A stretch of 64,000 nucleotides of DNA, taken from Hydractinia symbiolongicarpus. Taxonomy: Eukaryota; Cnidaria; Hydrozoa; Anthoathecata; Hydractiniidae. Positions 10,201 through 59,514 of this stretch are shown here, in pieces. Within the stretch, counting starts at the first letter, position 1. Each line of letters starts with the position of its first letter. A program made the position numbers and the translations under genes. The stretch is taken from positions 11,594,001 through 11,658,000 of the forward strand of contig NC_079884.1 in NCBI RefSeq assembly GCF_029227915.1, given 5' to 3'. Below the pieces are notes generated by a model. It was not told the origin of the DNA. It saw only the letters and a program-made list of their open reading frames with translations, and did no database searches.

Positions 10201-10726
10201 CATTTAAAGCAATAAGTCTTTCTTCACGACCCCAATCCTGAAACTGATCAAGCCATGGCTGCAAGCGAGCTGGCGGGCTTGAAGCTTCAGAATGAAGTCT
10301 CTTGCGTACAGCGTACCCAGGACTGGCACATGAAGGTAAGACATGAGAAATTGAACTTCCTATACTGCTACAGGGCGATACAATATCAGAGTTTTTTAGC
10401 TTTTTCTCCGGTGTGGGAGATTCGTCATCTGAACACGAACATGTTTGTGATGTACTCCTTCTAAATTGCCTTTTTAAATAAACGCTTTTGCGACGAACAG
10501 GATCTGCATTTTCATTATTGCCAAATTCGATAGTATATTCATCTTGTAATTTTGTTATCAGAGTTTTCGTGATTCCTTCCACGGCTATGAGGTCATTAAT
10601 AGAGTTATATTTCGAATAAAGTTTGCGGTGCTCTACGATGATAGCTGCTTTTGCTTTTCCAATTCCTGGCAGTTGTTCAAGTTCTTGTATGCTTATTGTA
10701 TTAAAATCTATTACAGGTCTGTCCAT
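7207..10726 (-). CDS. FBXW7: F-box/WD40 protein 7 orthologue (SCF ubiquitin-ligase substrate receptor), four exons, 630 aa
   Basis: FBXW7/archipelago/CDC4 is the substrate receptor of an SCF ubiquitin ligase that recognises phosphodegrons in cyclin E, Myc, Notch and others. Coding exons in transcript order are 10008-10726, 9520-9836, 8151-8403 and 7207-7810. All are GT-AG, and 1893 nt in one frame gives 630 aa, close to human isoforms. Residues about 166-202 match the FBXW7 dimerisation segment ([30 protein letters not shown]). The F-box runs to about 245 ([14 protein letters not shown]). Eight WD40 blades follow from about 290. The three phosphate-binding arginines mutated in cancer in human (R465, R479, R505) are present at about 389, 403 and 429 with identical 14 and 26 residue spacing. 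Unlike the human isoforms I know, residues 8-69 form a clear double helix-hairpin-helix domain ([20 protein letters not shown], then [18 protein letters not shown]). A TTTTTAG acceptor lies 7 nt before the ATG. Confidence 0.93.
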
Positions 10727-12109
10727 ATTTTCACTAAAAAATCATTAGAAAATGCACTGATTTTCATAAAAGTTAACAACAAACCATACATTGAAAACAA
10801 AGTTACATCAGGTTAAATTTTTAGGCAAATAATATGGAATATCATTCCTTAAAAAAATGAGGGGAGAAGAGGGAAAAAGAAAAAAACTGTCATATTATTC
10901 TTTCTCAAATTTCAAAAAACCTGGAAGAAAGAGAACAAAAGAATTTATTTTTTATTCATTGATACAAATTATTTCATTCTGCTTCTTATTTTAACATGAT
11001 TTTCCAAAAAGCATTCTCAATTTTTTTATTATTATTATAGGCCTAAACCCTACAAATTTGCCCAAATAATTCTTCAATAGTAGGAAAACAAAATTACATT
11101 AAATCGCAACAATTTTGGCCAAGGGTTATAAAAACAAGAAAATTTCAGGTCTTATGACTTGTAGCGAATAAAGCTTTGCATATTCAAAAACTGTGACGTA
11201 CATGTCCTAAACATATATTTTTTTACTTATTAATTTCCCAGTTCTGTTGACCTGGCTTGTATATACACTCAAGAGGACTAACAGTTAGATATTATTAAAA
11301 GAAACCATATGAACTAATATGTAAATAAACTATGCAATTAAATGCCTAAGTTGAAAGCTAAGTCCTAGAGTGTTTGTTAGTTTGTTTACACGAAAAGAGT
11401 TTTAAACCCGTTAAGCCTCTGTACTACACATAGTATGAATATTGCAGTTTAGAGCGGTTGTAGCTGTCTAAGTTGCAATCTTGTTTAGTATGATTTTTAA
11501 GCACCTAGTGCTTAAGTGAACGGAAAAAGAAAAAAAAATTGGACCATGTATGTACATGACAATAACTGACAGCATTTAAAAACACAGACAATACAAATAA
11601 AGAACATTTTTTAAAAAATAATTTTTTTTATTAACAGATATAAATGTTTTTTAAAATGTTGGAACATTATAAAAAAACAAAACAGAAAACACAATAAGTA
11701 AAATATGAATTATAAAAAATATTTATAAATCATCAGCAAATTGTGACATGTAATTTCATGTTAATTGTCTAAATTAATTCTACATAAACTTTTAACCTGT
11801 CCAATATTGCACAAACTGAAAATTTTAATTTAGTTATTGGCTGCCTAATGTTGTTAATTTCAGCAGAATTTGCATAACTGGTAAAATTTTATACACAGGA
11901 AAAAGTTTATCTTCTTAAAATATATATGCAAACACTAGTCGATAGTTATTTAAAAAAAGTTGAGTTTAAAACACAATATAGATTAGATTGGAAGAATATG
12001 TATTATGCATATGTTATACTTACATCAGTAAAAAAACACAAATTGTAAAAATAAAAAAAAATGTAGCGAAATACTTCAGATGTATTGCTTAAAACCACTC
12101 CCCTTTCAT
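10727..12109. other. Intergenic, no gene seen
   Basis: AT-rich spacer holding the upstream region of FBXW7 and the 3' flank of the first sulfotransferase. No similarity or exon structure was recognised. Confidence 0.4.
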
Positions 12110-12982
12110 TTATTTTGAAAGCTCAGGAACAATTTCTTGGCATCTATCATTTAAAAACTTGATTTTTTCTTCATCCAAGTAATTCTTATGATCACCGATG
12201 ACTCCTTTACGAACAAAATTTTCTATCAATGAACAAACCGATTCTTCTTTCATTCGTTTAAAGTCAGCTGCTTTTTTTAATGTAGACATTAATTCAGATG
12301 TCATTTGTACATCAACAAATTCTGCAAGCTTTTTAACTGTCTCCTCAAAATTTCTAATTAAATCCTCATAATGTAACAAAAGAGTATTTTGATCAGAAGC
12401 ATCTAACCAACCTCTATACCATTGATACCAATCTCCCCAAAGAGTAGAACCTGACAGAAACATTTTGTAAAACGTTTCAAATTCGAGTGTGTTGTATATC
12501 TCTTTTGGGTTGGACGTATCATTCCTATAAAAGTGATAGCAAGATATCAATGTATCTTTTACATCACGTGCGACAATGATTTTTTTCGCCTTTGTTAAAT
12601 TAGGTGCTAGCCAAATTGGTAAATGTGTTTTTAATAGCCTCAAAGGATCATCTTGTAACGCCATTGCAAGATCATAGCCAACATATCCGCCTAAGTGAAG
12701 TTCCAAAAAAGGAAACATTTCGTCCATTTTATCATCATTAATGTTGAGCACTGAATCAGCTCCATACATCATTACCAACAACAATCTCCTTGTTATTGTT
12801 GTTCCTGATCTTGGATATGTTGCCAGTAAGATGTCTGTTTTTTTTAATTCCATATTATGTATTAGCTCCAAAGAGGTGGAAGGAAAATAATTACCAACCG
12901 TTATAGAGTTTACTCCATCTGTTACAATTTTTTGGTCTTTCACCTTTGGAAACTCGTCAGTGCAAGGCTGTACTGAAATCAT
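12110..12982 (-). CDS. Cytosolic-type sulfotransferase, single exon, 290 aa (SULT copy 1)
   Basis: PAPS-dependent sulfotransferase (Sulfotransfer_1 family) that would move a sulfonate group from PAPS to a hydroxyl or amine of a small acceptor; the substrate cannot be read from sequence. The 5'-phosphosulfate loop TYPRSGTT is at about 55-62, the catalytic-histidine region is KTHLPIWLAPN, and the 3'-phosphate site is IIVARDVKDTLISCYHF. The C-terminal signature is RKGVIGDHKNYL, where the usual RKGxxGDWK Trp is His. The usual KNHFTV dimer motif is replaced by a KNYLDEEK-type segment. Length is normal for SULTs. An in-frame ATG 28 codons upstream exists, but I chose this start because it aligns with the other copies (MISxxxC.DxFPK) and because TTTTAG, an acceptor-like site, sits 5 nt before it. 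Closest relatives in the window are the copies at 36.1 and 30.4 kb. Confidence 0.88.
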   Translation of the reverse strand: MISVQPCTDEFPKVKDQKIVTDGVNSITVGNYFPSTSLELIHNMELKKTDILLATYPRSGTTITRRLLLVMMYGADSVLNINDDKMDEMFPFLELHLGGYVGYDLAMALQDDPLRLLKTHLPIWLAPNLTKAKKIIVARDVKDTLISCYHFYRNDTSNPKEIYNTLEFETFYKMFLSGSTLWGDWYQWYRGWLDASDQNTLLLHYEDLIRNFEETVKKLAEFVDVQMTSELMSTLKKAADFKRMKEESVCSLIENFVRKGVIGDHKNYLDEEKIKFLNDRCQEIVPELSK

Positions 12983-14334
12983 TATGACTAAAACCAAAAT
13001 ATCAGGTAAAAAATTCGATAATACAAGATGTTCATGAAAATCAACACTAGTCAAAAACAAAATCATGATATTTTTGAAGAAAAAAAGTAAAAAAAAAGGG
13101 AAAGTAGCTAATTACGTTTATTTAATTTTTAAGGGTGAAGGATTGGTGCTTATTCAAGGATGTATTTTTATAAGGAATGGGGTTATTATTTATAAAAGAA
13201 GATTTAGATCCAATTCAAAATACTCAAAATAAATTAAACACAGCAAAATCCATGGGAAAATCCATTTGCGGTGGTTTAAAACATAAAAGTTCTCTCTTAA
13301 AAAATTAAGGCTGTGAAAAAGAGTTTTAAAGTTTCTTGAAGAAATCTTTTATACACTTCTGCATAAATAATTGGTCACTATGGTAATAGCCATTAGTTAA
13401 CAGGTTTCTTTACATCTTCTTATCCTGCATGTAGATAATTATAAGAAATAAAACTTGGTACCCAAGATGATTGTGTACAAATATTTGATCTTTATTACAT
13501 AGCAAAAAAAATTTTTTTTATTTTTTTTTTATTTTTGGAAATAATTTAGCTTATTACTTTTTTAAACAATATTTTTGCACCCTTAGACAGCTCAGGTTTC
13601 TTTCTATCCAATCACTAAATTTTTTTTGAAAATACAGCTCTTTTTTTCTAATCTCACACCTTAAGGAAATCATAGGTAAAAATATAGGTTTTCCTATTTA
13701 AAGTAATTACAAATTTTTATTAATTTAAAGTAATTACAAAAAAAAAATTCATTCTTTCCAACATGCTAGTTGTAACATCCAATAGCTATTTTTTGCACTC
13801 TTTCTTTCTTTGTGTCAGTTTCTTTAAAACATTTTTAATACTTTCGAAAACCGTTTGGAGATTATTTGTTAGATAACTCAGTTTGAAGCATTCTTTGCTT
13901 AACTTTCAAAATCAGAAACTTAGTTGCTTATGAAACAAGTTTACATCTAATTGTCTCACACGAATATCGGACATGAGCATAAATAATAAAACAATGAAAG
14001 ATAAACATGAAAACCTAGCACAATCATTTTTCTTAAACATGAGATCAAGTAAAATTTGTAAATAATTATCTTTTCTCTGGTTATAGTTCATCTATAAAAA
14101 AAGAAACAAATAAATTTAAAGGAAATCATATTTTAAGCAAATAGTGAAACCTAAGTTTTAAGGCATGTGGAAAAATTTGTGGATAATGATTTAGTTTCAC
14201 ATTTAACTTTAGTTGTAGAAAATTGTAATGGTACTTTTTCAGGAAACACTGAACACTAAAACCCACTTTGTTAAATTTGCCAAAAGCCACCTTCTAACAT
14301 TTACTGGCATATTACTTTGTGCAAACAATCAGAG
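12983..14334. other. Spacer between sulfotransferase copies 1 and 2
   Basis: AT-rich, with poly-A/poly-T runs (for example 13500-13540). No coding exon was recognised. Confidence 0.4.
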
Positions 14335-14546: not shown

Positions 14547-15443
14547 TTATTTTAATAGTTCTGGAACAATTTCTTGGCATCTACGATTTAAAAACTTGAT
14601 TTTTTCTTCATCCAAGTAATTCTCATGATCACCAATGACTCCTTTACGAACAAAATCTTTTATTGATGGAACAGTCAAATATTTTTTCATGCGTTTAAAA
14701 TCAGCGGCTTCTTTTAATGTAGACATCAATTCGGATGTCATTTTTACACCAACAAATTCTGCAAGCTTTGTAACTGTCTCCTCGAAATTTCTAATTAAAT
14801 CCTCGTAATGTAACAAAAGAGTATTTTGATCAGAAGCATCTAACCAACCTCTATACCATTGATACCAATCTCCACAAAGGGTGGAACCTGATATAAACAT
14901 TTTGTAAAACGTTTCAAATTCGAGTGTGTTGTATATCTCTTTTGGATTAGTGCTATCGTTCTTGTACAAAAAATAATTAGAAATCAAGGTATCTTTCACA
15001 TCTCGCACCACAATAATTTTCTTTGCACTTGCTGAATTAGGTGCAAGCCAAATTGGCAAATGTGTTTTTAACAAGCGATGTGGAGCATCTTGCGAATTCA
15101 TAGTAATATTATAGCCGACATAGGTATTGTCATTATTTACTGACTGACCTGCAGATTCAAACTCAATAAATGGAAACAAAATATCAATGTTGAAGGTGGG
15201 ATTGTTAAGCACTTTATTACCTCCATATTTAATCGCCAATAACAATGTTCTTGTCAATGTTGTTCCTGATCTTGCAAACCCAGTTAATAAAACATCTGTT
15301 TCTTTTAACTCTATTTTGTGTATTCTTTCAAGGTATGTGGTAGATAAGTAATTACCTGTAACTATAGAGTGAACTCCATTTGTCACTTGCTGTTGATTAT
15401 TCAATTTTGGAAAGTTGTCAAGACAGTCTGTTATTGAAATCAT
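14547..15443 (-). CDS. Cytosolic-type sulfotransferase, single exon, 298 aa (SULT copy 2)
   Basis: Same family and layout as copy 1. The PAPS 5'-phosphosulfate loop is altered to GFARSGTT, against TYPRSGTT in copies 1 and 4. KTHLPIWLAPN, IIVVRDVKDTLISNYFLYK and RKGVIGDHENYLDEEK are present. Copies 2 and 3 share the insertion carrying an (N)xxAYVGY-type stretch (here NTYVGYNITM) and an identical 3' flanking sequence TTTTTAACAGATTATTTTA, so they form a sister pair. TTTAG lies 4 nt before the ATG. The reading frame is fully open, and I see no reason to call it a pseudogene. Substrate unknown. Confidence 0.88.
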   Translation of the reverse strand: MISITDCLDNFPKLNNQQQVTNGVHSIVTGNYLSTTYLERIHKIELKETDVLLTGFARSGTTLTRTLLLAIKYGGNKVLNNPTFNIDILFPFIEFESAGQSVNNDNTYVGYNITMNSQDAPHRLLKTHLPIWLAPNSASAKKIIVVRDVKDTLISNYFLYKNDSTNPKEIYNTLEFETFYKMFISGSTLCGDWYQWYRGWLDASDQNTLLLHYEDLIRNFEETVTKLAEFVGVKMTSELMSTLKEAADFKRMKKYLTVPSIKDFVRKGVIGDHENYLDEEKIKFLNRRCQEIVPELLK

Positions 15444-16437
15444 TATACTAAATGGTAAAATAATAACTAGTACACATGCATGTTATAAATACCCCCATCC
15501 CCAACCACAAATGAACTGAGATATCTGAAAAATATACTATGACACGTCTTGACCTATCTGATCTTGGCTAAGCAACACTCTGACAAAGTCTTTGCTAGTG
15601 TGGCCTCATAAAGAGAATGCCTGAAAACAATTAGCTTCAAACTATTCGATTTTTTGCTAGAGCAGCCTGATGCCCTAAAAAGATATGGCTGGCTGATAAT
15701 ATCAAAGAGGACCCCCTACCTTAGTTTTGTTTAGTCTAATGAATGTAACATAATTTTAAAGCCTGTGTTTGCACTAAGGAAAACTATTATATGTGGGAGA
15801 TCAAGTTAAAAAGCTATTACCAAGGCAAATAGAACATGTTTTGATCCTTCCATGTATGATGGTAAGAAAACACATTTTTGCAAAATATCTGCACATCCAC
15901 CGTGTGCTGAATTTTTGTTTAAAAGCTATGTAATGACAATGAAAAAACTTATGAATATAGAAGGTCTTACATTAAATAGAAATGCATTGCATGAATTTAG
16001 TCTTTATACAATTATGTGAGTCTGAAAAACAGTTGCAATCTGTTTTTTAAAATCAAAAACACTTTTAACCAATTTCTATTTTAAAAGTATTCTTTGCTAA
16101 AGCTTCAGTTTGATTGGAAAACTGAAAAAACACAGAACATACAATATGCAAGTTAAAATAAAAAGTATATATAAAACTATAAAAAAAGGTTTCCATAATA
16201 CCCCAAAATATTTAATAGGTTTTTTAATAGGTAAAAAAAACTAAAAACAATAAATGGTTCATTTGATAAAATTATGTTTTTTTAAAAAAATTACGCTGAA
16301 TTGACATATTGACTACAGAAGAAACTGTTCATATCAGAAATGAAATACAATTTGAGATCTCCATTTTCATATAGCCGAAATATTATTATGGTTTTTTAAG
16401 AAAATATTTTCTATATGAATAACCCCTTTTTAACAGA
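15444..16437. other. Spacer between sulfotransferase copies 2 and 3
   Basis: AT-rich, no exon recognised. The 3' part shares the copy 2/copy 3 downstream motif, pointing to tandem duplication. Confidence 0.4.
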
Positions 16438-17331
16438 TTATTTTATTAGTTCCGGGACAATTTCTTGGCATCTATGATTTAAAAACTTGATTTTTTCTTC
16501 ATCTAAGTAATTCTGATAATCACCAATGATGCCTTTACGAAAAAAATCTTTGATTTCTGGAACATCCAGGGCTTTTTTCATGCGCTTAAAATCAGCTGCA
16601 TCTTTTAATGTGGACATCAATTCAGATGTCATTTCTACCCTAACAAATTTTGCAAGCTTTGTAACTGTCCCCTCAAAATTTCTAATTAAATCTTCATAAT
16701 GTAACACAAGAGTATTTTCATCAGATGCATCTAACCAACCTCTGTACCATTGATACCAATCTCCACAAAGGGTAGAACCTGACACAAACATTTTGTAAAA
16801 TGTCTCGAACTCTAGGGTGTTGTAGATCTCTTTTGGGTTTGTTTTATCATTCTTGTACAAAAAATAATTAGATATCAATGTATCTTTCACATCACGTGCT
16901 ACAATGACTTTTCTAGCCCTTCCTGATTTAGGTGCTAGCCAAATTGGTAAGTGTGTTTTTAATAACCGCTGAGGAGCATCTTCCAGTGCCATGGTAGCAT
17001 CATAACCTACATATGCATTTTCATCATTCATTTGTGAAACAGATTCACATTCAATGAATGGAGAAATGCGATCCATGTCAAAATCAGGGTTGTTGATTAC
17101 CTTGTCAGCTCCATACAACATTACCAACAGCAGTGTTCTTGTTATTGTGGTCCCTGACCTTGCAAATGTGGCTAACAAGATGTCTGTCTCCTTTAACTCC
17201 ATCTGGCATATTTTTTCGAGATATGTTGTTGTCAAGTAGTTACCAGTAACTATAGAATTAACTCCATTTGTTATCTTTTGTTGGTTCTTTAATTTCGGAA
17301 AGTCATCGCTGCATGATTCTATTGTAATCAT
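16438..17331 (-). CDS. Cytosolic-type sulfotransferase, single exon, 297 aa (SULT copy 3)
   Basis: PAPS-dependent sulfotransferase, sister of copy 2. Motifs are TFARSGTT (5'-phosphosulfate loop), KTHLPIWLAPK, KVIVARDVKDTLISNYFLY (3'-phosphate site) and RKGIIGDYQNYLDEEK (C-terminal PAPS signature with Trp replaced by Tyr). The frame is open from an ATG preceded by TTTTAG at 5 nt. All intact copies lack introns within the coding region. This could mean an old retroposed founder, or an ancestral intronless state. Substrate unknown. Confidence 0.88.
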   Translation of the reverse strand: MITIESCSDDFPKLKNQQKITNGVNSIVTGNYLTTTYLEKICQMELKETDILLATFARSGTTITRTLLLVMLYGADKVINNPDFDMDRISPFIECESVSQMNDENAYVGYDATMALEDAPQRLLKTHLPIWLAPKSGRARKVIVARDVKDTLISNYFLYKNDKTNPKEIYNTLEFETFYKMFVSGSTLCGDWYQWYRGWLDASDENTLVLHYEDLIRNFEGTVTKLAKFVRVEMTSELMSTLKDAADFKRMKKALDVPEIKDFFRKGIIGDYQNYLDEEKIKFLNHRCQEIVPELIK

Positions 17332-18180
17332 TTTTACTAAAATTTAAAAAACTGATACAAGCTGAATAAACCAGACACGACCAGCGAGAAATAAAAATAA
17401 GATAATTAAATATTGCAATTTGGGCTGGAAGATTGGTCACATTCTCTGAACTTAAAAACATACTTTCACGCAAATCTTTTTAGACTTGGCAGATGCACAT
17501 AACATAATTGATGCAAGTCTGAGAAGACTTTGCAAAAGCCTGGGAGCACCCCTTTTTTCTTAGAAGTTACCTACACTGGTAATTTATCATCTTGAGTGTG
17601 GGCAAATTACTGAACTTATTACAACACTGAGGTAGGTTTTTAATTCTTGTTGGTGTGTAGTTTTTTAACTAAAAGGAAACCAGATGTATAAGAGGGCTAT
17701 TATAAAAAATCTAAGAGGCCTTGGACGAGCAAACTAGTGTCATTTTAACAAAAAAAAATTATGTTAATCAATTTAGCTTCATAACATCTAGTACGCATTG
17801 ATAAAGTTTGAATGCACATTCCTTAACAGTTTTAAAATTACTAATGACAGAAAAAAATTTGCTATTACTTAAATATGACATCATAATTTATACAGCATAA
17901 TTAAATCTATGTAAATTCTTTAAATGTGAATATCTTGAGAACGAAAGAGTTTTTAAGGAAGACTTGCTAACCAACTTTTTAAAGGGTTGAGAATCACTTA
18001 AACCTCGGGTTCCTTCCTATTAACAAAACACATTGCAAAAATCACTACTTACATTAGCAATTTATGCTTTTACACATTTTATAGCAATATGAGGAAAGCA
18101 TTGTCAGTTATATAATGTCTTGTTCTCAATGTGGTCTCTCGATTTTAGTTAAAGTTTAGGTTGCCTTCTATTTAGCTACC
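17332..18180. other. Intergenic, no gene seen
   Basis: AT-rich upstream flank of sulfotransferase copy 3 with no recognisable coding sequence. Confidence 0.4.
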
Positions 18181-30000: not shown

Positions 30001-30420
30001 AACTTAATAAAATGTGAAATCTTTAAAATTCGTACTGTAAACAAACAACCTGTTCAGGGGCGGATACAGGAATTTAAACAAGTTAGTCCATTATTTTACA
30101 AAGTCACCAAGAAATGGGCGTTAAAAGAACGCAAGGCGTTTAGGGGTGTTTTTTACTTAGTGCATAAAATCCCATTTTGAAAATACAGTAAACCAATATG
30201 AGGAAAACCAAGAGGGACAGGTCTATATATTAGCCACTTTTATACTGAGATTTAAGCCGGTTTACTTAAAATGACATGTTTTGTAAAGTGACCGGTTTTC
30301 ACACCGTGTTTAGGTTAAAAATTTTGCACGCTTTGAAAAAAATCTTGATTATTTTAACCCTCTATCCAGGAGGCACTTTTTTAACAACAACAAATTTTTG
30401 TATACCGCATTTTTACTCTA
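27096..30420. other. Gene-poor interval
   Basis: Holds a run of 13 C at about 27499-27511, a mini foldback element (separate entry), and an open frame at 28880-29125 (+). That frame has an acidic end and a good donor (ACACG|GTAAGTG), so it may be an isolated exon, but no partner exon was found. Confidence 0.35.
27962..28032. mobile_element. Mini foldback element (about 70 bp)
   Basis: Arms 27965-27987 (CCTCGTCTCCAGCACTTGTT, AGG) and 28006-28028 pair over 23 bp with about four mismatches around an 18-bp loop. The ends resemble the CAACCTCGTCCCCAGGGC termini of the 8.9-kb element at 44.3-53.2 kb. It is probably a deletion derivative of a related DNA transposon. Confidence 0.65.
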
Positions 30421-31144
30421 CTTATTGATGGACTAGTCAAATCTTTTTTCATGCGTTTAAAATCAGCTGCTTCTTTTAATGTGGACATCAACTCAGATGT
30501 CATTTTTACACCAACAAATTCTGCAAGCTTTGTAACTGTCTCCTCGAAATTTCTAATTAAATCCTCGCAATGTAGCAAAAGAGTATTTTCATTAGAAGCA
30601 TTCAGCCAACATCTATACCACTGATACCAATCTCCCCAAAGAGTAGAATCCGATACAAACATTCTGTAAAACGTCTCAAACTCGAGCGTGTTGTATATCT
30701 CTTGGGTTTTTGTTTCGCATCTCGTGCAACAATAATCTTTTTTGCCTTTGTCGACTTAGGTGCCACCCAAAATGGTAAATGCGTTTTTAATAGGCGGCGA
30801 GGAGCATCTTCCAATGCTTTTGCAGCGTGGTAGCCAAAGTATCCTGTTTCATCTTTTTTCAGTTCTATAAAAGGAGACATTTCCTCCATTTCTTTAATAT
30901 TAATTTTAAGCACTGAATCAGCTCCATACATCATTACCAACAACAATCTCCTTGTTATTGTTGTTCCTGATCTTGGATATGTTGCCAGTAAGATGTCTGT
31001 TTCTTTCAATTCCATATTATGTATTAGCTCCAAATAGGTGGGAGGAAAATAATTACCAACTGTTATAGAGTTTACTCCATCTGTTGCAATTTTTTGGTCC
31101 CTCACCTTTGGGAAATCGTCAGTACAAGGCTCTATTGAAATCAT
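30381..31144 (-). pseudogene. Broken sulfotransferase (duplicate of SULT copy 4)
   Basis: This is nearly identical to the copy at 36.1-37.0 kb. About 40 bp around 30700-30720 are missing, removing the middle of the 3'-phosphate-binding DTLISMYYFYKND segment and shifting the frame. The 3' end stops at the duplication border (about 30422), so the RKGVIGEY region and the stop codon are gone and replaced by unrelated sequence. The PAPS loop TYPRSGTT is still present. It cannot make a normal enzyme. Confidence 0.92.
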
Positions 31145-32272
31145 AGTAACAGAAATCAAAACAACAGGTGCTATATTTCATAAAGATTAGGTGCTTGCAA
31201 AAATGAAATAATGAGAGGTAGTAGTCGAACTTGTCAAAGTTCACCTTTCATTGTTCACAACGAACTAAGACATTGGACCTAAGATTACTTTATTAGATCC
31301 AATATCTTAAGCTTAGTTTAGTTTAGTAAAGTTTTTAAATTTACGGCTTTATTTGATGACATTATTGTCAACAAAAATCTAATTTGTCGGCAAATAATTG
31401 CGACCTCAAAACATTCTCTTAGCAAATGTCACAGACAGACACGGAAGTACCCAATTGTTATAACAGACTAGTTGTTGGACCTCGAGGGGAGATCCCCTCA
31501 AGCAGAAGAAAACTCTCTTTAATTCATAAAACAATATTTACAGAAATAGAATTTTTGATGACGGAATTAATCCCATCCTTAGCAAGGGAAATCTTTAGAA
31601 TTTGTCAACCAGTTGTCATAATTTCATACACTTAAATCGCAGAACAAAATAATATATATCGTATACGTATAATCTTGTTGACCAGTTATCCGATGTCAGC
31701 AATGATTCACAAATAAAACATTCTCTTTCGGAAATTTCTTTACGCTTTACCTCCATTGTTTAGAGCCTGGAATACTGATTTAAATAATGCATGAAATCAT
31801 GTGCTTTTGACAGAGAAACTGGACTTTAAATGTTTTTAATGACGTCATCAGCCTGTCCATTCTGAAACAGTTTGGTCCGTTTTCTTCCTACTTACACGCG
31901 CGGTGAGAAATAATTGACGTCACAAACCCGTTTCAAAGTTATTTAGCGTAAGTTATAAGTGCACTGCAATGACTTCATAAATTGAAAATAAGATGTTAAT
32001 GTTTAATAATTAATGTTTAATTACTAGCCGAAGTCCCGTGGAAGAATCCACTGAATCTCTCATCGAGTCCATATGATGGGTGCCAAATAAAAACATAGAA
32101 CACAGTAATAACAACTTGCATTATTCTATATCTATAACCGCTGAAACATAAGCATGTGCAGCAAAAAAAAATAATAATAAAAGAGAAAAAACGCCCTGGG
32201 ATTAGGGTTGTTCACAATCTGCATTGTACAGAACGTTCAAAAATATAAGCAGGTCAACAACAAAATAAAAAT
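30422..32272. repeat. Segmental duplication, copy A (partner 36216-38126)
   Basis: About 1.85 kb is shared in the same orientation with 36216-38126. It begins at TTATTGATGGACTAGTC inside the SULT gene, covers its upstream region, and ends near GCAGGTCAACAACAAAATAA. Differences are few (single bases, the roughly 40-bp deletion, small poly-A changes), so the duplication is recent. Confidence 0.9.
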
Positions 32273-34310: not shown

Positions 34311-34676
34311 TATATGCTCTTTTTAAGACAGATGCTGTGATTCTACCTGCTCTATGAATTTGCCATGCTGTTGACAAGCGCTCTTCTCTTGTAACTTTCG
34401 TTAAAATTTTGTACTGACTGTCACAGTAGCCGTTTTTGTATTTGTAATAAAGCTCTCTGCACTCTGACTGAATTTCTTCAGGATTATTATTAATTGTGGC
34501 ATAATGTTTTGCGCCTCACTCAATTTATGACATAGCTACTATAGTAAAGCGCTTCACCTAAATGTGTGGCACAGTTTACACTTCTTATTAATCGCTCTTT
34601 CAAGTGTTCAACGCCAGGTAACACAGTTACTTGCGGCTTAACCGGGCGTTTGGACTCTGGGTTCCCTTGCTAGTCA

Positions 34677-35565
34677 TCATCATCATAATCATTATCGGCT
34701 TATTGTCCGTTTTCATGCCAGTATGGGTTGGACGGGGTATATTAAAGACCCTCTTCCAATCTGATCTAGACTGTGTTAGATCTAAACTCAACTTCCTCTG
34801 TATCGAGTCTGTCCTTATAACCTCCTGCCAAGTCTTTTTCGGTTTCCCACTGGGCTTTGCCCCAGGAACTATCAAGTCTCTACACTTTCTTACCCAATTA
34901 TCCCCCTCCATTCTTTCCAAGTGCCCCAGCCAATTCAATCTTCTTATCTGGATAACATCTTTAATTCTACGGATACTTAGCCTGCTTCTTAGCTCATCTG
35001 AACTCTTTCTGTCTCTCAGACTAGCGTTACACATCCACCTAACCATTCTCAATTCATTCCTTTCTAAACGGTCAAGATCTTCCTGCTTCACTGCCCATGT
35101 CTCACTACCGTACAACATAACACTTCTTACACATGCCTCATACAACCTACCTATTAACTCAATTGAGAAGACTCTGCTAGTCAACAAAGGAAGTAACTCT
35201 CTGAACGTTTTCCAAGCAGAACCTATCCTGCAAGTAACACTTCTTCCCCCTTCACTGCCCAACATATCACCTATGTAACAGAAGTTCTCAACTATCTCTA
35301 ACGAGCCACTGTTGTACATCATTGAAGCTGGAAATACTTCATTCTCTGTAATCTCACCTTTGCAACGCTTGTATACAAACTGAATGTCAGCTCTTAACCT
35401 TCCCCCAATACTACTGCACTTATGTACCCAATGCTTGCAAGTCAGACAAAAAATTGAATTAGTACCAACCTCTTTCCTGCAAACTCCACTAGGCCACTTT
35501 CCAACTACAAGGTGACACTTGGCTGCAATGCTACTAATCATGACTTCAGACTTTTGCTGTGTTCA
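34677..35565 (-). mobile_element. 5'-truncated LINE copy 2, with 304-aa open frame
   Basis: Minus-strand reading runs from the PHD-like finger (GVCRKEVGTNSIFCLTC; the first Cys is changed to Ser and one later Cys to Tyr) through RLYEACVRSVMLYGSETWAV and LNWLGHLERMEGDNWVRKCR to an (ATG)n tail. The catalytic reverse-transcriptase core is absent. It has about 90 percent identity by eye to the copy at 41-42.5 kb. It is inserted beside the YqaJ relic and inactive. Confidence 0.9.
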
Positions 35566-36099: not shown

Positions 36100-36981
36100 T
36101 TAAATTTTTAAAAGCTCAGGAACAATTTGCTGGCACCTGTTATTTAAAAACTTGACTTTTTCTTCATCCAAGTAATTCCAATATTCACCAATGACTCCTT
36201 TACGAACAAAATCTTTTATTGATGGACTAGTCAAATCTTTTTTCATGCGCTTAAAATCAGCTGCTTCTTTTAATGTGGACATCAATTCAGATGTCATTTT
36301 TACACCAACAAATTCTGCAAGCTTTGTAACTGTCTCCTCGAAATTTCTAATTAAATCCTCGTAATGTAGCAAAAGAGTATTTTCATCAGAAGCATTCAGC
36401 CAACCTCTATACCATTGATACCAATCCCCCCAAAGAGTAGAATCCGATACAAACATTTTGTAAAACGTCTCAAACTCGAGCGTGTTGTATATCTCTTTTG
36501 GGTTTCTGTTATCATTCTTATAAAAGTAATACATAGATATCAATGTATCTTTCACATCTCGTGCAACAATAATCTTTTTTGCCTTTGTCGACTTAGGTGC
36601 CACCCAAAATGGTAAATGCGTTTTTAATAGGCGGCGAGGAGCATCTTCCAATGCTTTTGCAGCGTGGTAGCCAAAGTATCCTGTTTCATCTTTTTTCAGT
36701 TCTATAAAAGGAGACATTTCCTCCATTTCTTTAATATTAATTTTAAGCACTGAATCAGCTCCATACATCATTACCAACAACAATCTCCTTGTTATTGTTG
36801 TTCCTGATCTTGGATATGTTGCCAGTAAGATGTCTGTTTCTTTCAATTCCATATTATGTATTAGCTCCAAATAGGTGGGAGGAAAATAATTACCAACTGT
36901 TATAGAGTTTACTCCATCTGTTGCAATTTTTTGGTCCCTCACCTTTGGGAAATCGTCAGTACAAGGCTCTATTGAAATCAT
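36100..36981 (-). CDS. Cytosolic-type sulfotransferase, single exon, 293 aa (SULT copy 4)
   Basis: Intact PAPS-dependent sulfotransferase, closest to copy 1 (shared GNYFPxTxLELIHNMELK and TYPRSGTTITRRLLLVMMYG). Motifs: KTHLPFWVAPK, IIVARDVKDTLISMYYFY and RKGVIGEYWNYLDEEK. Here the Asp of the RKGxxGD signature is Glu, and the following residue is Tyr. The start is the ATG at 36981; five upstream in-frame codons begin with TTG and are not used. Unlike copies 1-3, no AG lies within a few nt of the ATG; the nearest acceptor-like AG is about 29 nt away. Most of the gene and its upstream 1.1 kb belong to the duplicated block, but this copy retains its 3' end, so it is the parent of the broken copy at 30.4 kb. 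Confidence 0.88.
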   Translation of the reverse strand: MISIEPCTDDFPKVRDQKIATDGVNSITVGNYFPPTYLELIHNMELKETDILLATYPRSGTTITRRLLLVMMYGADSVLKINIKEMEEMSPFIELKKDETGYFGYHAAKALEDAPRRLLKTHLPFWVAPKSTKAKKIIVARDVKDTLISMYYFYKNDNRNPKEIYNTLEFETFYKMFVSDSTLWGDWYQWYRGWLNASDENTLLLHYEDLIRNFEETVTKLAEFVGVKMTSELMSTLKEAADFKRMKKDLTSPSIKDFVRKGVIGEYWNYLDEEKVKFLNNRCQQIVPELLKI

Positions 36982-38126
36982 AGTAACAGAAATCAAAACA
37001 ACAGGTGCTATATTTCATAAAGATTAGGTGCTTGCAAAAATGAAATAATGAGAGGTAGTAGTCGAACTTGTCAAAGTTCACCTTTCATTGTTCACAACGA
37101 ACTAAGACATTGGACCTAAGATTACTTTATTAGATCCAATATCTTAAGCTTAGTTTAGTTTAGTAAAGTTTTTAAATTTACGGCTTTATTTGATGACATT
37201 ATTGTCAACAAAAATCTAATTTGTCGGCAAATAATTGCGACCTCAAAACATTCTCTTAGCAAATGTCACAGACAGACACGGAAGTACCCAATTGTTATAA
37301 CAGACTAGTTGTTGGACCTCGAGGGGAGATCCCCTCAAGCAGAAGAAAACTCTCTTTAATTCATAAAACAATATTTACAGAAATAGAATTTTTGATGACG
37401 GAATTAATCCCATCCTTATGCAAGGGAAATCTTTAGAATTTGTCAACCAGTTGTCATAATTTCATACACTTAAATCGCAGATCAAAATAATATATATCGT
37501 ATACGTATAATCTTGTTGACCAGTTATCCGATGTCAGCAATGATTCACAAATAAAACATTTTCTTTCGGAAATTTCTTTACGCTTTACCTCCATTGTTTA
37601 GAGCCTGGAATACTGATTTAAATAACGCATGAAATCATGTGCTTTTGACAGAGAAACTGGGCTTTAAATGTTTTTAATGACGTCATCAGCCTGTCCATTC
37701 TGAAACAGTTTAGTCCGTTTTCTTCCTAGTTACACGCGCGGTAAAAAATAATTGACGTCAAAAACCCGTTTCAAAGTTTTTTATCTTAAGTTATAAGTGC
37801 ACTGCAATGACTTCATTTCATAAATTTAAAATAAGATCTTAATGTTTAATAATTAGTGTTTAATTACTAGCCGAAGTCCCGTGGAAGAATCCACTGAATC
37901 TCTCATCGAGTCCATATGATGGGTGCCAAATAAAAACATAGAACACAGTAATAACAACTTGCATTATTCTATATCTATAACCGCTGAAGCATAAGCATGT
38001 GCAGCAAAAAAATAAAAAAATAAATAATAATAAAAAAGAAAAAACGCCCTGGGATTAAGGTTGTTCACAATCTGCATTATACAGAACGTTTAAAAATATA
38101 AGCAGGTCAACAACAAAATAAAAATA
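36216..38126. repeat. Segmental duplication, copy B (partner 30422-32272)
   Basis: Partner of copy A. It ends in AGCAGGTCAACAACAAAATA followed by unrelated sequence. Because the SULT gene is complete only here, B is more likely the donor. Confidence 0.9.
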
Positions 38127-40956: not shown

Positions 40957-42510
40957 TCATCATCATCATCATTCTCGGCTTAACGTCCGTTTTCCATGCT
41001 AGCATGGGTTGGACGGGGTATATTAATGACCCTCTTCCAATCTGATCTAGACTGTGTTAGATCTAAACTCAACTTCCTCTCTATCAAGTCTGTCCTTATA
41101 ACCTCCTGCCAAGTCTTTCTCGGTCTGCCTCTGGGCTTTGCCCCAGGAACTATCAAGTCTCTACACTTTCTTACCCAATTATCCTCCTCCATTCTTTCCA
41201 AGTGCCCCAGCCAATTCAATCTTCTTATCTGGATAACATCTTTAATTCTACAGAGACTTAGCCTGCTTCTTAGCTCATCTGAACTCTTTCTGTCTCTCAG
41301 ACTGGCATTACACATCCACCTAACCATTCTCATATCATTCCTTTCTAAACGGTCAAGATCTTCCTGCTTCACTGCCCATGTCTCACTACCGTACAACATA
41401 ACACTTCTTACACAGGCCTCATACAACCTACCTTCTACCTCAATTGACAGGACTCTGCTAGTCAATAAAGGAAGTAACTCTCTAAACTTTTTCCAAGCAG
41501 AACCTATCCTGCAAGTAACACTTCTTCCAACACCCCCTTCACTGCCCAACATATCACCTAAGTAACAGAAGTTCTTAACTATCTCTAACGAGCCACTGTT
41601 GTACATCATTAAAGCTGGAAATACTTCATTCTCTATAATCTCACCTTTGCAACGCTTGCATACAAACTGTATGCCAGCTCTTAACCTTCCACTAATACTA
41701 CTGCACTTCTTATGTACCCAATGCTTGCAAGTCTGACAAAAAATTGAGTTACTACCAACCCCTTTCCTGCAAACTCCACAAGGCCACTTTCCAACTACAA
41801 GGTCACACTTGGCTGCAATGCTACTTATCATGACTTTAGACTTTGCTGTGTTTACCTTCAGCCCTTTCTCTTCTAGTCCTTTCTTCCACTTCTCAAACTT
41901 TTCAACTAATTCTTCCATCGACTCTGCTATGAGAACCAAATCATCTGCATACAATAACTCCCATGGGCAACCTGTTCTGAACTCCATCGACAGCGCTTCT
42001 AAGACTAGAATAAACAAGAAAGGACTAAGTACAGAACCCTGATGTACACCAACATTTATACTAAATTCATCACTAAGTGAATCGTTAATCCTGACACGAA
42101 TTTTAGCATTGCTGTACATAGACTGAACCATCGTAACTAGCCACTCATCCACACCTAATTTTCTCATAGCCCACCAAATAACTTTACGTGGCACTCTATC
42201 AAAAGCTTTCTCTAAATCTACAAAGGCAAAATAGAGATTCTTTCTCTTTCCTAAATACTTTTCCTGAAGCTGTCTGAGTAAAAATATTGCATCTGTAGTG
42301 CCACGCCCTGGAACAAAACCAAATTGCATCTTATCTATATCAATTCTTTCTCTAAGTAACTTATCAATCACTCTTTCAATAACTTTCATTACTTGATCAA
42401 CCAACTTCAAACCTCTATAGTTACCCCTTTCTAATGCATCACCCTTGCCCTTGAAACAATTCACTATTACACTCGACTGCCACTCACTCGTTTTACAGAA
42501 GAAAAATTAA
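40957..42510 (-). mobile_element. LINE (RTE/RTEX-like), 5'-truncated, with open reverse-transcriptase frame
   Basis: The minus strand is open from about 42507 to 40980 (about 509 codons). It carries WQSSVIVNCFKGKGD, GFVPGRGTTDAIFLLRQLQ, FVDLEKAFDRVPRKV (catalytic Asp), HQGSVLSPFLF and LLYADDLVLIAES (catalytic DD). Next comes a C4HC3 PHD-like finger (CGVC, FCQTC, HWVHKKC, FVCKRC) and a conserved C-terminal region. The 3' end is (ATG)n on the minus strand. The endonuclease and ORF1 are missing, so this copy cannot move by itself, but its frame is unbroken and thus young. The RTE-like assignment is by the microsatellite tail and general motif style; a jockey/CR1 relation is possible. Confidence 0.9.
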
Positions 42511-53205: not shown

Positions 53206-53765
53206 GAAGAATCGGTTAAACGAATAAAAATAGAAAAGCCAAATTTCCGGAGCGAAGGCAATAAAGCGCAATACGAAAGGAATATTGCTTAGAAAAATGC
53301 ATTAATAAAGCAGATAAGCAGCTTGAAAACCAACAACTCAATGCATCTAGTGAATCTCTTAAAGAAGGTAAGGAACTTCTTAAAAAGTATCAGAAACTTA
53401 TTCGTATGGCTGATAGAGAGGAAACCGGTTGGCATTTTGTTAAGGAGTATTTGTCTGATGACTTAGCATCTGATTCAGCCGATGAAAAACAAATTAAGAT
53501 GGCAAGGTCGAAAGCATCAGCAAAGCGAAAAACATTCGAACAATCTAAAAGAAATAAGTACGCTAATAAGAAATATTTCAATCAGTACGAGTCCAAGAAC
53601 TTTTACTCTAAAAACTTTGCTCCAAGATCTTATCGTGATGAACCTACTGATTTAATGAAAAAAGGTTTCGATTTTAGAAAGAACAAGTTCGATAGAAACT
53701 GTTATGTCTGCGGAAAAGCTGGACACTTACTCTACAACTGCCCCGACAAAAACAAATTCAGTTAA
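53206..53765 (+). pseudogene. DIRS-like retrotransposon gag, 3' piece with CCHC knuckle
   Basis: Resumes the frame interrupted at 44302, with KPNFRSEGNKAQYE, then an in-frame TAG near 53293. An open 119-codon stretch from 53406 follows: REETGWHFVKEYLSDDLASD, a Lys/Arg-rich linker, and the zinc knuckle CYVCGKAGHLLYNC (C-x2-C-x4-H-x4-C). It ends at TAA 53763-53765. Typical of cnidarian DIRS-like gag proteins. Confidence 0.75.
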
Positions 53766-53879
53766 AGGTCGTTTAAGAAAACATATACAGTTTTGGGAAA
53801 AGGAACTTGAATGCTCTACCTTTGTATTGAACATATAGCACATGGATATATCTTCCTTTTACTGCACATCCACCATCTT

Positions 53880-54480
53880 TTTTCGCAAAACACAATTAGT
53901 CGAGCCTTAAACACAGTGAATTTGTTGAAACAGCTATTATAGAACTTTTAGATAAGGGTTTAATACAAGAACTTACAGAACAACCTTACTGTTGCAATCC
54001 TCTCACAGTCGTCGAGGGTAAAAAACTTAGAATGGTACTCGATCTAAGACACGTCAACAATTATTTGCAACAAATTAAATTTAAATTCGAAGATCTGAAA
54101 ACGTTGGCCGATAATTGGGGAAAAAGACTTTTTTACCACTTTTGACTTAGTATCTGGCTACCATCACGTAAAAATACACCCCAGCCATAAAAAATATCTT
54201 GGTTTTAGGTGGGTATTTAAAAATGGCATAACAAGATATTTCCAGTTTCTAGTACTTGCATTTGGTTTAGCTACTGCATTTTACGTTTTTACGAAATTGC
54301 TACGACCGTTAATAAAAAAGTGGAGAAAAATAGAAATTAAGTCGGTAGTCTATCTTGATGACGGAATAAATGCTTCATCTTCTTTTCTCGCATGTAAGGA
54401 AGCCATCAAATTAGTTACTCAAGATTTAACAAAAGCCGGTTTTGTGATTAATTACGAAAAAAGGCAAGCTAGAGCCTAGA
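53880..54480 (+). pseudogene. DIRS-like reverse transcriptase (frameshifted)
   Basis: SEFVETAIIELLDKGLIQEL, then GKKLRMVLDLRHVNNYL, followed by a frameshift near 54120. Then TFDLVSGYHHVKIHP (catalytic Asp), YFQFLVLAFGLATAFYVFTK, and VVYLDDGI (the catalytic DD pair). Further stops follow at 54478. The motif order and wording are DIRS-type rather than Gypsy-type. Confidence 0.8.
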
Positions 54481-54559
54481 CAAAAAGGTGAGTGGTTGGG
54501 AACAGTCGTCGATACCACTGCTATGAAATTTTACGTCCTAGAAAGAAAATTAAGTAAGC

Positions 54560-55405
54560 TTTTTACCTTGATAAACATACAACATCGCAAATTCTTTTTA
54601 CTGACGTAAGCGAGAACTTTTACGGGAGCTTTATGTTAAAAAGGCTAGGAAAGATGTTATGTCATGGCAAGTTCAACAACACTGAGATAAGAACAAGTTC
54701 AACCGAACGCGAACTATTAGCTATAAAATATTCTATGGAATCTTTCGCACATCCCTTGAAAAACGAGTCCGTAAATATCAGAACCGATAACTTCTCTGCC
54801 TCAAGAATTCTAGAAATTGGAAGTACAAAACCACATTTACATTCTATAGCTGTAGATAATTTTAAAATTTGTGTACAAAACGACATCCAAATTTCACCAA
54901 CGTGGATACACAGGGAACAAAATCATACGGCTGACAAATTAAGCAAGTTGATCGACACAGATGATTGGTCCATTGATAATTCTTCATTCACAAGCATTAT
55001 TAAGGTCTTTGGTGAAGTTCAATTCGATCGTTTTGCGGACAATTTTAACAGCAAAGTTATCGATTTTAATTCGAAGTTTTAATGTCCCGGTTCATTAGGC
55101 GTTGATGCTTTTACACAAGACTGGTCAGATTGCGATAATAATTGGCTTTGCTCACCAATCAAATTAATAAACACGACTATTAAACATTTAAAAGTGTGCA
55201 AAGCAAAAGGCATATTAATAATCCCAGAATGGTATTCAAGCTCCTTTTAGCCATATCTATCTCATAATGGAAAATTTTATGACTTTGTTAAACGAATTTA
55301 CTATTTCAATCCGTTTTATAGAAGTACTTGTGATAATTCCGTTTTTAAAGGGCACGCAAACTTTAGAACATTAGCGTTATATATAGATTTTTGTAATTTG
55401 TAGGT
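54560..55405 (+). pseudogene. DIRS-like RNase H and C-terminal domain
   Basis: RNase H motifs: SSTERELLAIKYSMESF, NIRTDNFSASRI and WIHREQNHTADKLSKLIDTD. The frame is open 54633-55082, then TAA, after which the family's C-terminal stretch continues (CPGSLGVDAFTQDWSD, KAKGILIIPEWYSS, VFKGHANFRTLALYIDF) with another in-frame stop near 55250. No tyrosine recombinase domain was found downstream, so the copy is incomplete. Confidence 0.75.
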
Positions 55406-55730: not shown

Positions 55731-56466
55731 CGACCTCAGAGGTTTTAACCAAGATATTTGCTTGGAAGTTGTGTTTTCATGTTAATATGTTGTGTTATAT
55801 GAAACCTTAGAAACTGATATTTCTTATTTTTAAAACTGTTTAGCAAATGATTGACGTATTACTTCCTGAATATAACGGAGATAACATATTTGAAGCCCCA
55901 TCTAACTTCCGTGCTAATGCAAATTTTACTAGGATAAAGATTGCTAAGTGTAGCATGGAACCTATTTCATTGTCTGTTTGTCTGTGACATCATTGTCTGT
56001 TGCAGAGTAGCAGGCTCTTCCTTTCCTTGTAGTTGAATGTAGTAGAGCGTTATTTTTCGTAGCGACGGTAAAATTCAAATTGCGTGTGTTTCCTTCACAA
56101 GTCGACAGCTTGATTTCTTCTTGGAGTGCATGGCTGTCCTTTTTTTAGATTATGGATGCGCGTAATTTGCGCACTTGCATGCAGTGCAGAATCCGAAAGC
56201 TCGAAATCTTCAAGGGAAATCGCTTCTATCAAATTAGCATTATTGGATGTCATTATAGTTTCTGCTGTTATTATGTTTGGAACCCTACATTGTACCTTTA
56301 TCACGAAAAAAAAAATACTATTTGGATAGATAAAAATGCCAGCGAGCCCCAGACAATGTTTTGGTTAACATTAAAAAAGAAATGGTGAGCGGTCCACTGA
56401 AAATATATGACTACATTGTTTTACTACGACAAACATGTATTTAAAAATTTAATAAATATTTCTCTT
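55731..56466. other. Short uncharacterised frames, no supported gene
   Basis: At 55846-55985 (+) a 46-codon frame starts MIDVLLPEYNGDNIFEA, 3 nt after a CTGTTTAG acceptor-like site. On the minus strand 56095-56300 is open and acidic. Neither has a recognised homologue or partner exon, so I leave both uncalled. Confidence 0.35.
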
Positions 56467-59400
56467 TTATAATAAACTATACATCAATCTTAAGTGCATT
56501 CTAACCAACGTGATCTCCACTTCTTCCAAAACGGCAAACATTTGTAAATCATTTGATAACGGTGCTGTGGTTGGGCATGTGTCAGTGATGGGAAATTTGT
56601 GGAACACGTCACGTGTTGTATCTAGTTTGGATTGCAGGAATATCATTGGCGTTCTTTCTTCTGCTTTTTCTTGAAAAAACTAAAATAAAAAAGTAATCTT
56701 GTAATTAGAGAATAAGTTTTCCCTGATATTATTTTGACTTTTTTATTTGTTAATTAATAATAATAATAATCCATATTTCCCCAAATTGTAATTTATATTG
56801 CCCGATTTTGAATCTATATTGCCCGATTTTGAATCTATATTGCCCGATTTGGAATCTATATCGCCCGATTTTTAATCTATATTGCCCGATTTTTAATCTA
56901 AATTGCCCCGATTTTTAATCTATATTGCCCCGATTTGTAGTCTATATTGCCCCAATTTGTAATCTATATTGCCCCGATTTGCAATCTATAATGCCCGATT
57001 TTTAATCTATATTAATTTGATTTGTATCCATATTGTCCCGATTTATAATTTACATTGCCCGATTTTTAATCTATATTGCCCGATTTTTAATCTAAATTGC
57101 CCCGATTTTTAATCTATATTGCCCCGATTTGTAGTCTATATTGCCCCAATTTGTAATCTATATTGCCCCGATTTGCAATCTATAATGCCCGATTTTTAAT
57201 CTATATTAATTTGATTTGTAATCCATATTGTCCCGATTTGTAATTTACATTGCCCGATTTTTAATCTATATTGCCCGATTTTTAATCTAAATTGCCCCGA
57301 TTTTTAATCTAAATTGCCCCGATTTGTAGTCTATATTGCCCCGATTTGCAACTTCAAGATAGACTATTTTTTAGTATCATCCGGCATACCTTCACACTAC
57401 TTTGAAGGACAACTGCTAGCCGTTTGAAACACAATAGGAGACGTTTCAATCTTTTGAATAAGCCTTGTCGTTTTGCACCATTATATTTCTCTTCTGTGAA
57501 AATAGCTTTTACTGTTGGGATTGTATTTTTGGTGATTGCAAAGAATTCTAACATAATATCTTGATCCTAAAAAAATAAGCAATTAAAAATCATAAAGTGC
57601 AGAAAATATCTGAATACCCTTTCCATACCTATAAAATGTGAAATTTTTACACACTGTTAAAAACCATATTATTATTAATTTTGTTCTTGTCTTTATGTTA
57701 TGTTTTACAAGATTTTGTTTATCATTTTGTAAGTTCATTATACTTAAAATTGTAATTTGGTTTCCTGCTAAAATAACATATTTTGAGAATGTTGGCAGTG
57801 TACCTAATTACTGAATAAATTTTCCGTTTTATTGACACTAGTGAGTATTACCCGCTAAACCTGCCACTAATATGGCTCAATAGTAAATTTATTTAAAAAT
57901 GTAGCTATGTACGTTTGGTAGAAAAATAGTTAGATGTATCATTGAGACAGAGCAAGATTTGAAAAATAATTAGATTTCTACTTACTTTCCTTCCATCCAA
58001 TGGCACCATAAATGTTGGGCAAAAATTGGTTTGATTGCATCCTCGCTCGCTGATAAAGTTACCCTAATCAATAAGTGATAAAAAAGTGTACATAAATTGT
58101 TACAACCATAGCAGATAGACTTCTTTATTTCTAAGCTCATTCTTTTTGGTTTATTTTTAGAATTTCGTATAAACTTTAAAGTTTGTTAACTTTTAGCCCT
58201 TGGTCTGCTTTGTCGGTCTTAACCCATGGCTTTTTGTTTATGTTTTGCAAAATATTTATCATCCATATTAAGTTGTCTCTCCTTAAAAAATCAAAAATTT
58301 ATTGTTGTAGGAGCATGGTGTATATTTTTTATAATGAATTTGATGCTCTTAGTTTTGTTGAATTCGAATTCTAAAATGTTCTTAGATATAGAATATTAAC
58401 TCATCCATTCAGTTACAGTTTATTTTCAATTTTCTTCTTAATAATGGGTCTACCCTTTATTGTTTTCAGAAAATCTGATACCCTAAATTTTTGTTTATAA
58501 ATGTACAATTATGGACAACCAATGATGGAGATATTTCAAATGCAACGTGGTAAGTACAATAGAGTATTGTGGGTAATTGTAAATAAAAATATGTGCAAAA
58601 AAATTGGCACGCGATATACTATCTTCGAAATACTGAAATTTTAAACAACTACTTTAAAGGTTTTTGCACGAGCTTTTTTACATATCTCTGACAAGTCGAG
58701 CTAGTCAATCACAACATATTTTGCCAGAGTTTATGTATTTATTTTAAAACATATTACGCTAAATTATTTAAAATAAGAAATAACATTCGAGACTTCACAT
58801 GAGACTATACATATAGCGAAAGAATTTTCCATAAATACAAGAATGTTAATATATTGATATACTGACATTACACTAGTTCCAACGGAAACCCAAAGCACGT
58901 ATTTTTTTTTCAATACATAAAATAAAGATAATGCATCTACTTACTAAATCACATCTTGCAAGACGAGATTGTCTGTGACATGAAATTATATTTCGTTTTA
59001 CAATTTCCTTTGCTTTTTTTGACGATGACAAATTTAGTTTTGTAGATTTAGCGAATAGATCTTGCCAGCTATCTAGTAAAGCTGCAATAGACAACAAATT
59101 AAAAAACTTTTATTCTTTAAACAATTATTTTTTATTTTTCATATTTAAAATAATTTAACAAATGCATTAATACAGATGCATTTCAGTTAAAATTCCTTTA
59201 AATATTGTTTAGGACAAAAAACCAACACATTTCAAAGATAAAAGCCTTCATTCTCACATTTTCTGGTAGTAAACCAGCCTCAAAATTTCAAATGAAAATG
59301 AAAAAGTAAAATCACAAACTCCTAGCTCCTCAGAAAACTTACTGAAGTTATCTGTTGCTAGTATTCTTTTAACACCTCTTTCAACTGGCTGTCACTTGAC

Positions 59401-59514
59401 ACGGGTCATGATAACTCAAGAAGCATACGACTTTAATTTATAGGTATATACCTCAACTTAATTCATTTTAAAATAAGTCTTACCTATACAAAAAATAATT
59501 CCATATAACTTCAT
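56467..59514 (-). CDS. Secreted helical-cytokine-like protein, five exons, 211 aa (novel candidate)
   Basis: Assembled by hand. Exons in transcript order are 59484-59514 (31 nt), 58945-59081 (137), 57986-58063 (78), 57390-57566 (177) and 56467-56679 (213 with TAA). All introns are GT-AG (donors GTAAGA, GTAAGT, GTAAGT, GTATGC), with phases 1, 0, 0, 0 and one unbroken frame of 636 nt. The N-terminus MKLYGIIFCIALLDSWQDLF looks like a signal peptide with its cleavage site near 21-23. The mature part has helix-forming stretches at about 30-55, 83-109, 114-150 and 185-209, a Cys-bearing loop (C65, C71) encoded by the small exon 3, cysteines at 45, 54, 65, 71, 128 and 176, and N-glycosylation sites N27 and N66. 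There is no transmembrane segment. The four-helix layout and gene architecture resemble vertebrate EPO/TPO/IL-6-type class I cytokines, but I recognise no sequence homologue. A short upstream ATG frame overlaps the start (ATGA). It could instead be another secreted helical protein. Confidence 0.72.
56770..57355. repeat. Minisatellite (about 21-22 bp unit, about 26 copies) in intron 4 of the cytokine-like gene
   Basis: The unit is approximately TATATTGCCCGATTTTTAATC with variants GCCCCGATTTGTAG and AATTTGATTTGTA. A higher-order period of about 194 bp is visible (the AATTTGATTTGTA variant recurs near 57011 and 57205). An (AAT)n run at about 56755-56770 precedes it. Confidence 0.92.

Follow-up and report, generated by a model that had tools for sequence, protein, structure and literature searches.

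Structure of the gene

The question raised by the locus described here is whether a small five-exon gene of Hydractinia symbiolongicarpus, proposed in the initial annotation to encode a class I helical cytokine with an EPO/TPO-like gene architecture, is indeed a deeply diverged member of that class or a secreted protein of another kind. The gene lies on the minus strand of a 64,000-nt stretch of genomic DNA (hereafter referred to as the window), to which the positions given below refer unless indicated otherwise.

Reconstruction from splice sites and open reading frames yielded five exons of 31, 137, 78, 177 and 213 nt with introns in phases 1-0-0-0, exactly at the positions proposed earlier, and all four introns are of the GT-AG type with T-rich acceptors. 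The first exon (59484..59514, minus strand, as are all the others; 31 nt of coding sequence) contains the start codon and the beginning of a putative signal peptide and is followed by the phase-1 intron. The second exon (58945..59081, 137 nt) encodes the end of the signal peptide, an N-terminal segment and putative helix A, together with Cys45, Cys54 and the motif NLS (Asn27), whereas the third (57986..58063, 78 nt, residues 57-82) encodes a loop with a CX5C pair (Cys65, Cys71) and the glycosylation motif NQT (Asn66). Putative helices B and C are located in the fourth exon (57390..57566, 177 nt, residues 83-141), which also carries a cationic amphipathic stretch (residues 115-135), Cys128, and Pro99 within putative helix B. 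The fifth exon (56467..56679, 213 nt including the stop codon, residues 142-211) comprises the end of helix C, a CD loop with Cys176, and putative helix D, which extends to the C-terminus. A pattern scan of the 3' flank revealed a candidate poly(A) signal, ATTAAA, 13 nt past the stop codon (56448..56453, minus strand). Intron 4 harbours, outside the coding part of the gene, a tandem repeat detected by Tandem Repeats Finder (56767..57348, minus strand) that consists of 27 copies of a 22-nt unit and also shows a higher-order unit of 194 nt in three copies.

After splicing, the coding sequence amounts to 636 nt and specifies 211 amino acids. Because this protein is identical over 211 of 211 residues to "uncharacterized protein LOC130612685 [Hydractinia symbiolongicarpus]" of NCBI/UniRef, the five-exon chain is more than a product of chance, and the gene is genuine. 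The same identity bears out the initial impression of a cnidarian-like genome, the owner of the protein being a hydrozoan cnidarian.

Features of the deduced protein

The product of LOC130612685 is probably a small secreted protein, as judged from its sequence. The hydropathy of the N-terminus peaks at 3.1 (9-residue window) over residues 5-13. The lenient (-3,-1) rule admits four cleavage contexts, namely after residues 11, 15, 21 and 23; it is on these two measures that the signal peptide was assessed. Past residue 25, the mean hydropathy over 19 residues does not rise above 1.42. Six cysteines follow the N-terminal region (residues 45, 54, 65, 71, 128 and 176), two N-glycosylation motifs of the NxS/T type are present (Asn27 and Asn66), and the pI calculated for residues 12-211 is 9.55. 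Lys/Arg-rich 18-residue windows beginning at residues 115-118 display a helical moment of 0.50-0.56.

The description of the protein as helix-rich agrees with a simple propensity rule, under which the order of helix C, CD loop and helix D is also recovered, but the rule returns six stretches (residues 1-41, 47-59, 82-94, 104-147, 157-166 and 186-211) rather than four clean helices. When compared with shuffled sequences, none of the putative helices A, B, C and D proved amphipathic at p<0.05, the best value being 0.053 for helix C on one of the two scales. One must bear in mind that this test is weak, because in human IL-6, taken as a control, only helices A (p 0.02-0.03) and D (0.03-0.06) pass on at least one scale, while B (0.13-0.26) and C (0.08-0.12) fail as well. 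The amphipathic C-terminal helix proposed earlier is only weakly supported: no shuffle test reached p<0.05, and the beta-like moment of the last stretch (∼0.50 at 165 degrees) exceeds the alpha-like one (0.38 at 100 degrees).

Search for relatives

Protein searches with the whole protein, residues 40-141 and residues 108-211 each returned, at E<=10, a sole match, namely the protein itself (140, 8 and 22 candidates scored, respectively). No Pfam family and no PDB sequence was matched at E<=10 either. The genome of the species yielded no second copy of the gene at E<=0.001, all four matches among nine scored candidates being its own exons. Likewise, no relatives were found in the 264 kb around the gene (the window and 100 kb on each side, with low-complexity sequence masked), where non-self matches had E values of at least 1.6. 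A search of the window alone without such masking gave weak matches with E values of 0.054 (inside a sulfotransferase ORF), 0.071 (9772-9683) and 0.29, which are missing from the masked search. Since the protein search requires shared words of five residues, orthologs of about 30% identity may escape it, and the apparent restriction of the gene to its lineage may therefore reflect fast divergence. In the portion of the open-access literature retrieved by queries that did not use the locus name as a term, no description of the gene was met.

Comparison with class I cytokines

The five coding exons, the 1-0-0-0 phases and the order of the structural units are shared by the genes of IL-6, G-CSF and EPO. 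In LOC130612685, the introns separate the signal peptide, putative helix A, the cysteine loop, putative helices B and C, and putative helix D, with intron 2 placed after putative helix A. Both exon sizes and phases are similar to those of EPO/TPO, the coding exons of human EPO measuring 13, 146, 87, 180 and 156 nt, as the initial annotation also stated. With IL-6 and G-CSF the protein shares its length (∼180-210 residues) and a small CX5C loop in exon 3, for which the letters of human IL-6 and G-CSF were checked in PDB. The second pair of these two cytokines, CX9C, is absent from the LOC130612685 protein (CX8C and CX10C being the nearest spacings), and the other cysteines of the latter lie elsewhere, at positions 45, 54, 128 and 176. 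The likeness to EPO is limited in a similar way: EPO has a CX3C loop, and neither its first nor its last cysteine has a clear counterpart.

Taken singly, each of these parallels is unremarkable by chance. A 1-0-0-0 phase pattern is expected, from phase frequencies, in a few percent of five-exon genes; CX5C arises in 13.9% of shuffled sequences, and 15% of random placements bring the introns as close to the predicted helix ends. Moreover, intron 2 precedes the CX5C loop by 8 residues, whereas the corresponding distance in IL-6, G-CSF and EPO is 0-2 residues. The likeness of the gene layout to that of class I cytokines is suggestive, not diagnostic. Five exons are also typical of class II cytokine genes (IL-10/IFN-lambda), whose introns, according to PMC2654155, split no codon, IL3 and IL21 being listed there alike; affiliation with class II was ruled out by the phase-1 first intron of LOC130612685.

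In agreement with the initial statement that sequence identity to known cytokines is not evident, and with the lack of any Pfam or PDB match at E<=10, global alignment of the protein gave Z scores of 0.66 with IL-6, 1.13 with G-CSF and -1.58 with EPO, none of them significant, while IL-6 and G-CSF reached 11.3 in the same test. The segment CNQTNFC resembles CNKSNMC of human IL-6, and CNxxNxC occurs in 0.02% of shuffles, a pattern that was picked post hoc. The first version of the global alignment to IL-6 was matched by 37 of 1000 shuffles; with another matrix and other gap costs, p rose to 0.234. In the local alignment, 460 of 1000 shuffles did as well and the score equalled the shuffled mean. 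This similarity was dismissed as evidence of homology to IL-6. It should be noted that accepted sister cytokines hardly match each other, with E values of 0.49 for EPO and TPO, and of 1.7 and 0.33 for IL-6 and G-CSF.

Receptor and JAK/STAT context

The initial annotation called for a search for a class I cytokine receptor in the same genome, and two domains were tried. A genome search with EpoR_lig-bind (PF09067) gave one match (E 9.3) and one with IL6Ra-bind (PF09240) likewise a single match (E 1.9, within a tandem repeat), both below the cut-off and both in searches in which introns split the domains and which had no animal positive control. The PF09067 search also responded in 2 of 14 control genomes, those of E. 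coli and M. jannaschii, and the sub-threshold matches to both domains are taken as spurious. Both receptor candidates below the cut-off, L025 and L026, were rejected: the six-frame reading of the former holds a long ORF that looks paraoxonase-like, and the latter reads as a tandem repeat.

A frame resembling FERM_F1 of the JAK type was located at L031:881-1228 (minus strand), corresponding to G000:C1:30290989-30291231, scoring 25.5 and 25.0 bits, just short of the cut-off of 26.1, with a Pfam E value of 2e-5. The genomic match contains one internal stop, its comparison with PDB gave no JAK match, and no other JAK domains were recognised by eye in the surrounding 40 kb. It is possible that the frame represents a cnidarian JAK exon, a relic, or a chance resemblance.

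According to published work, CRLF3, a receptor-like protein with a WSXWS motif, ranges from cnidarians to mammals (PMC6797617, PMC12026705), and the latter review describes its native ligand as unidentified and places the assembly of a complete cytokine signalling pathway within Bilateria. In PMC8226699, no ligands of the IL-6 superfamily were located in invertebrates (BLASTP, E<=1e-10), and PMC13203501 confines IL-6-type ligands to vertebrates and contradicts itself as to JAK in Coelenterata. Insect Upd ligands are treated in PMC5385356 and PMC8226699 as four-helix candidates beyond the reach of BLAST; Drosophila Unpaired 2/3, ligands of Domeless, show that four-helix ligands of invertebrates can have precedents that such searches miss. 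A claim akin to the cytokine reading has been made before.

Genomic neighbourhood

Several other loci were noticed in the window. An array of sulfotransferase-like ORFs occupies the minus strand (12110-13111, 14547-15482, 16438-17343, 30381-31177 and 36100-37014; PF00685 was tested on two of them and the others were assigned by eye), in which 30381-31177, with its two overlapping frames, looks like a broken near-copy of 36100-37014. A single ORF at 10004-10741 (minus strand) has a helix-hairpin-helix motif and an F-box. Retrotransposon remains include a reverse transcriptase ORF with a PHD finger at 40980-42506 (minus strand), a region at 34627-35562 (minus strand) that is similar by eye, and, ∼1.4 kb past the 3' end of LOC130612685, a region at 53265-55082 (plus strand) with a zinc-knuckle (just below the cut-off), reverse transcriptase and RNase H. 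Beyond the window, four ORFs in L010, L011 and L014 (G000:C10, about 11713008-11750953, plus strand) begin with a common hydrophobic segment whose core reads FLGC/FLSC/FLAC, which suggests a putative membrane protein family about 60-100 kb from LOC130612685.

Nature of the LOC130612685 product

On balance, we favour the view that LOC130612685 encodes a secreted protein of unassigned family that is apparently confined to its lineage and probably evolves fast. Reading it instead as a highly divergent four-helix cytokine of the long-chain class I type, with a layout nearest to that of IL-6/G-CSF and EPO, seems rather unlikely. Such a protein would be secreted, would bind and dimerise a receptor with two fibronectin domains, and would signal in the JAK/STAT manner. 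The 1-0-0-0 introns set between structural units, the CX5C loop of exon 3 and, with the reservation that the pattern was chosen post hoc, CNQTNFC speak in favour of this reading, as do the near failure of accepted sisters such as EPO and TPO to detect each other, the JAK-like FERM_F1 exon just below the cut-off, and CRLF3, recorded for cnidarians in PMC6797617 and PMC12026705. They are opposed by the lack of any match to a Pfam cytokine family at a threshold as lenient as E<=10, by global Z scores far below that of IL-6 with G-CSF, by a local IL-6 alignment no better than shuffles, and by a helical pattern of six stretches that are not significantly amphipathic, with Pro99 in helix B and a beta-like periodicity at the C-terminus. 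The receptor domains gave nothing above the cut-off, the JAK-like frame is interrupted by a stop and has no JAK match in PDB, and the surveys located no ligand of the IL-6 family among invertebrates (PMC8226699, PMC13203501).

The displacement of intron 2 relative to the cysteine loop, 8 residues as opposed to 0-2, likewise sets the gene apart from IL-6, G-CSF and EPO. Because of a basic, amphipathic segment around residues 115-135, a secreted, membrane-active cationic host-defence protein has to be considered too, and we regard it as less probable still. The Lys/Arg-rich helical moment of that stretch, the high pI and the orphan status would suit such a role, but ∼190-200 mature residues with non-cationic segments are long for a peptide of this kind, no Pfam match supports it, the entire helix C segment does not exceed shuffles at p<0.05, and cytokines that bind receptors display a basic face, too. 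A product that is not secreted, or a functionless relic of gene prediction, is very improbable: the N-terminal hydrophobic core is indeed short (about ten residues), yet the five-exon frame is intact, its splice sites are proper and the NCBI model is identical.

As the preferred reading has it, the N-terminal hydrophobic stretch of this orphan secreted protein would direct it into the secretory pathway, leaving a mature protein of some 188-200 residues, basic and helix-leaning, whose six cysteines could form up to three disulfides. It would presumably fold as a small disulfide-stabilised domain and may function extracellularly as a diffusible factor. Several antimicrobial peptides of Hydra are taxon-restricted, and LOC130612685 resembles these orphans and other taxon-restricted cnidarian secreted proteins in being an orphan, small and secreted-looking and in having a basic stretch. 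It differs from them in its greater length, its cysteines and its division into five exons.

Should LOC130612685 nevertheless be an IL-6/G-CSF-like class I four-helix cytokine of a hydrozoan, which we hold to be doubtful, the ligand, its exon layout and its cysteine loop would predate the split between cnidarians and bilaterians, and its receptor would be CRLF3-like or of an unrecognised type. Even one such four-helix ligand from outside Bilateria would push back the origin of this class of cytokine signalling and would provide a candidate ligand for CRLF3. If the gene encodes simply an orphan secreted protein, exon layout alone would prove a weak guide to cytokines.
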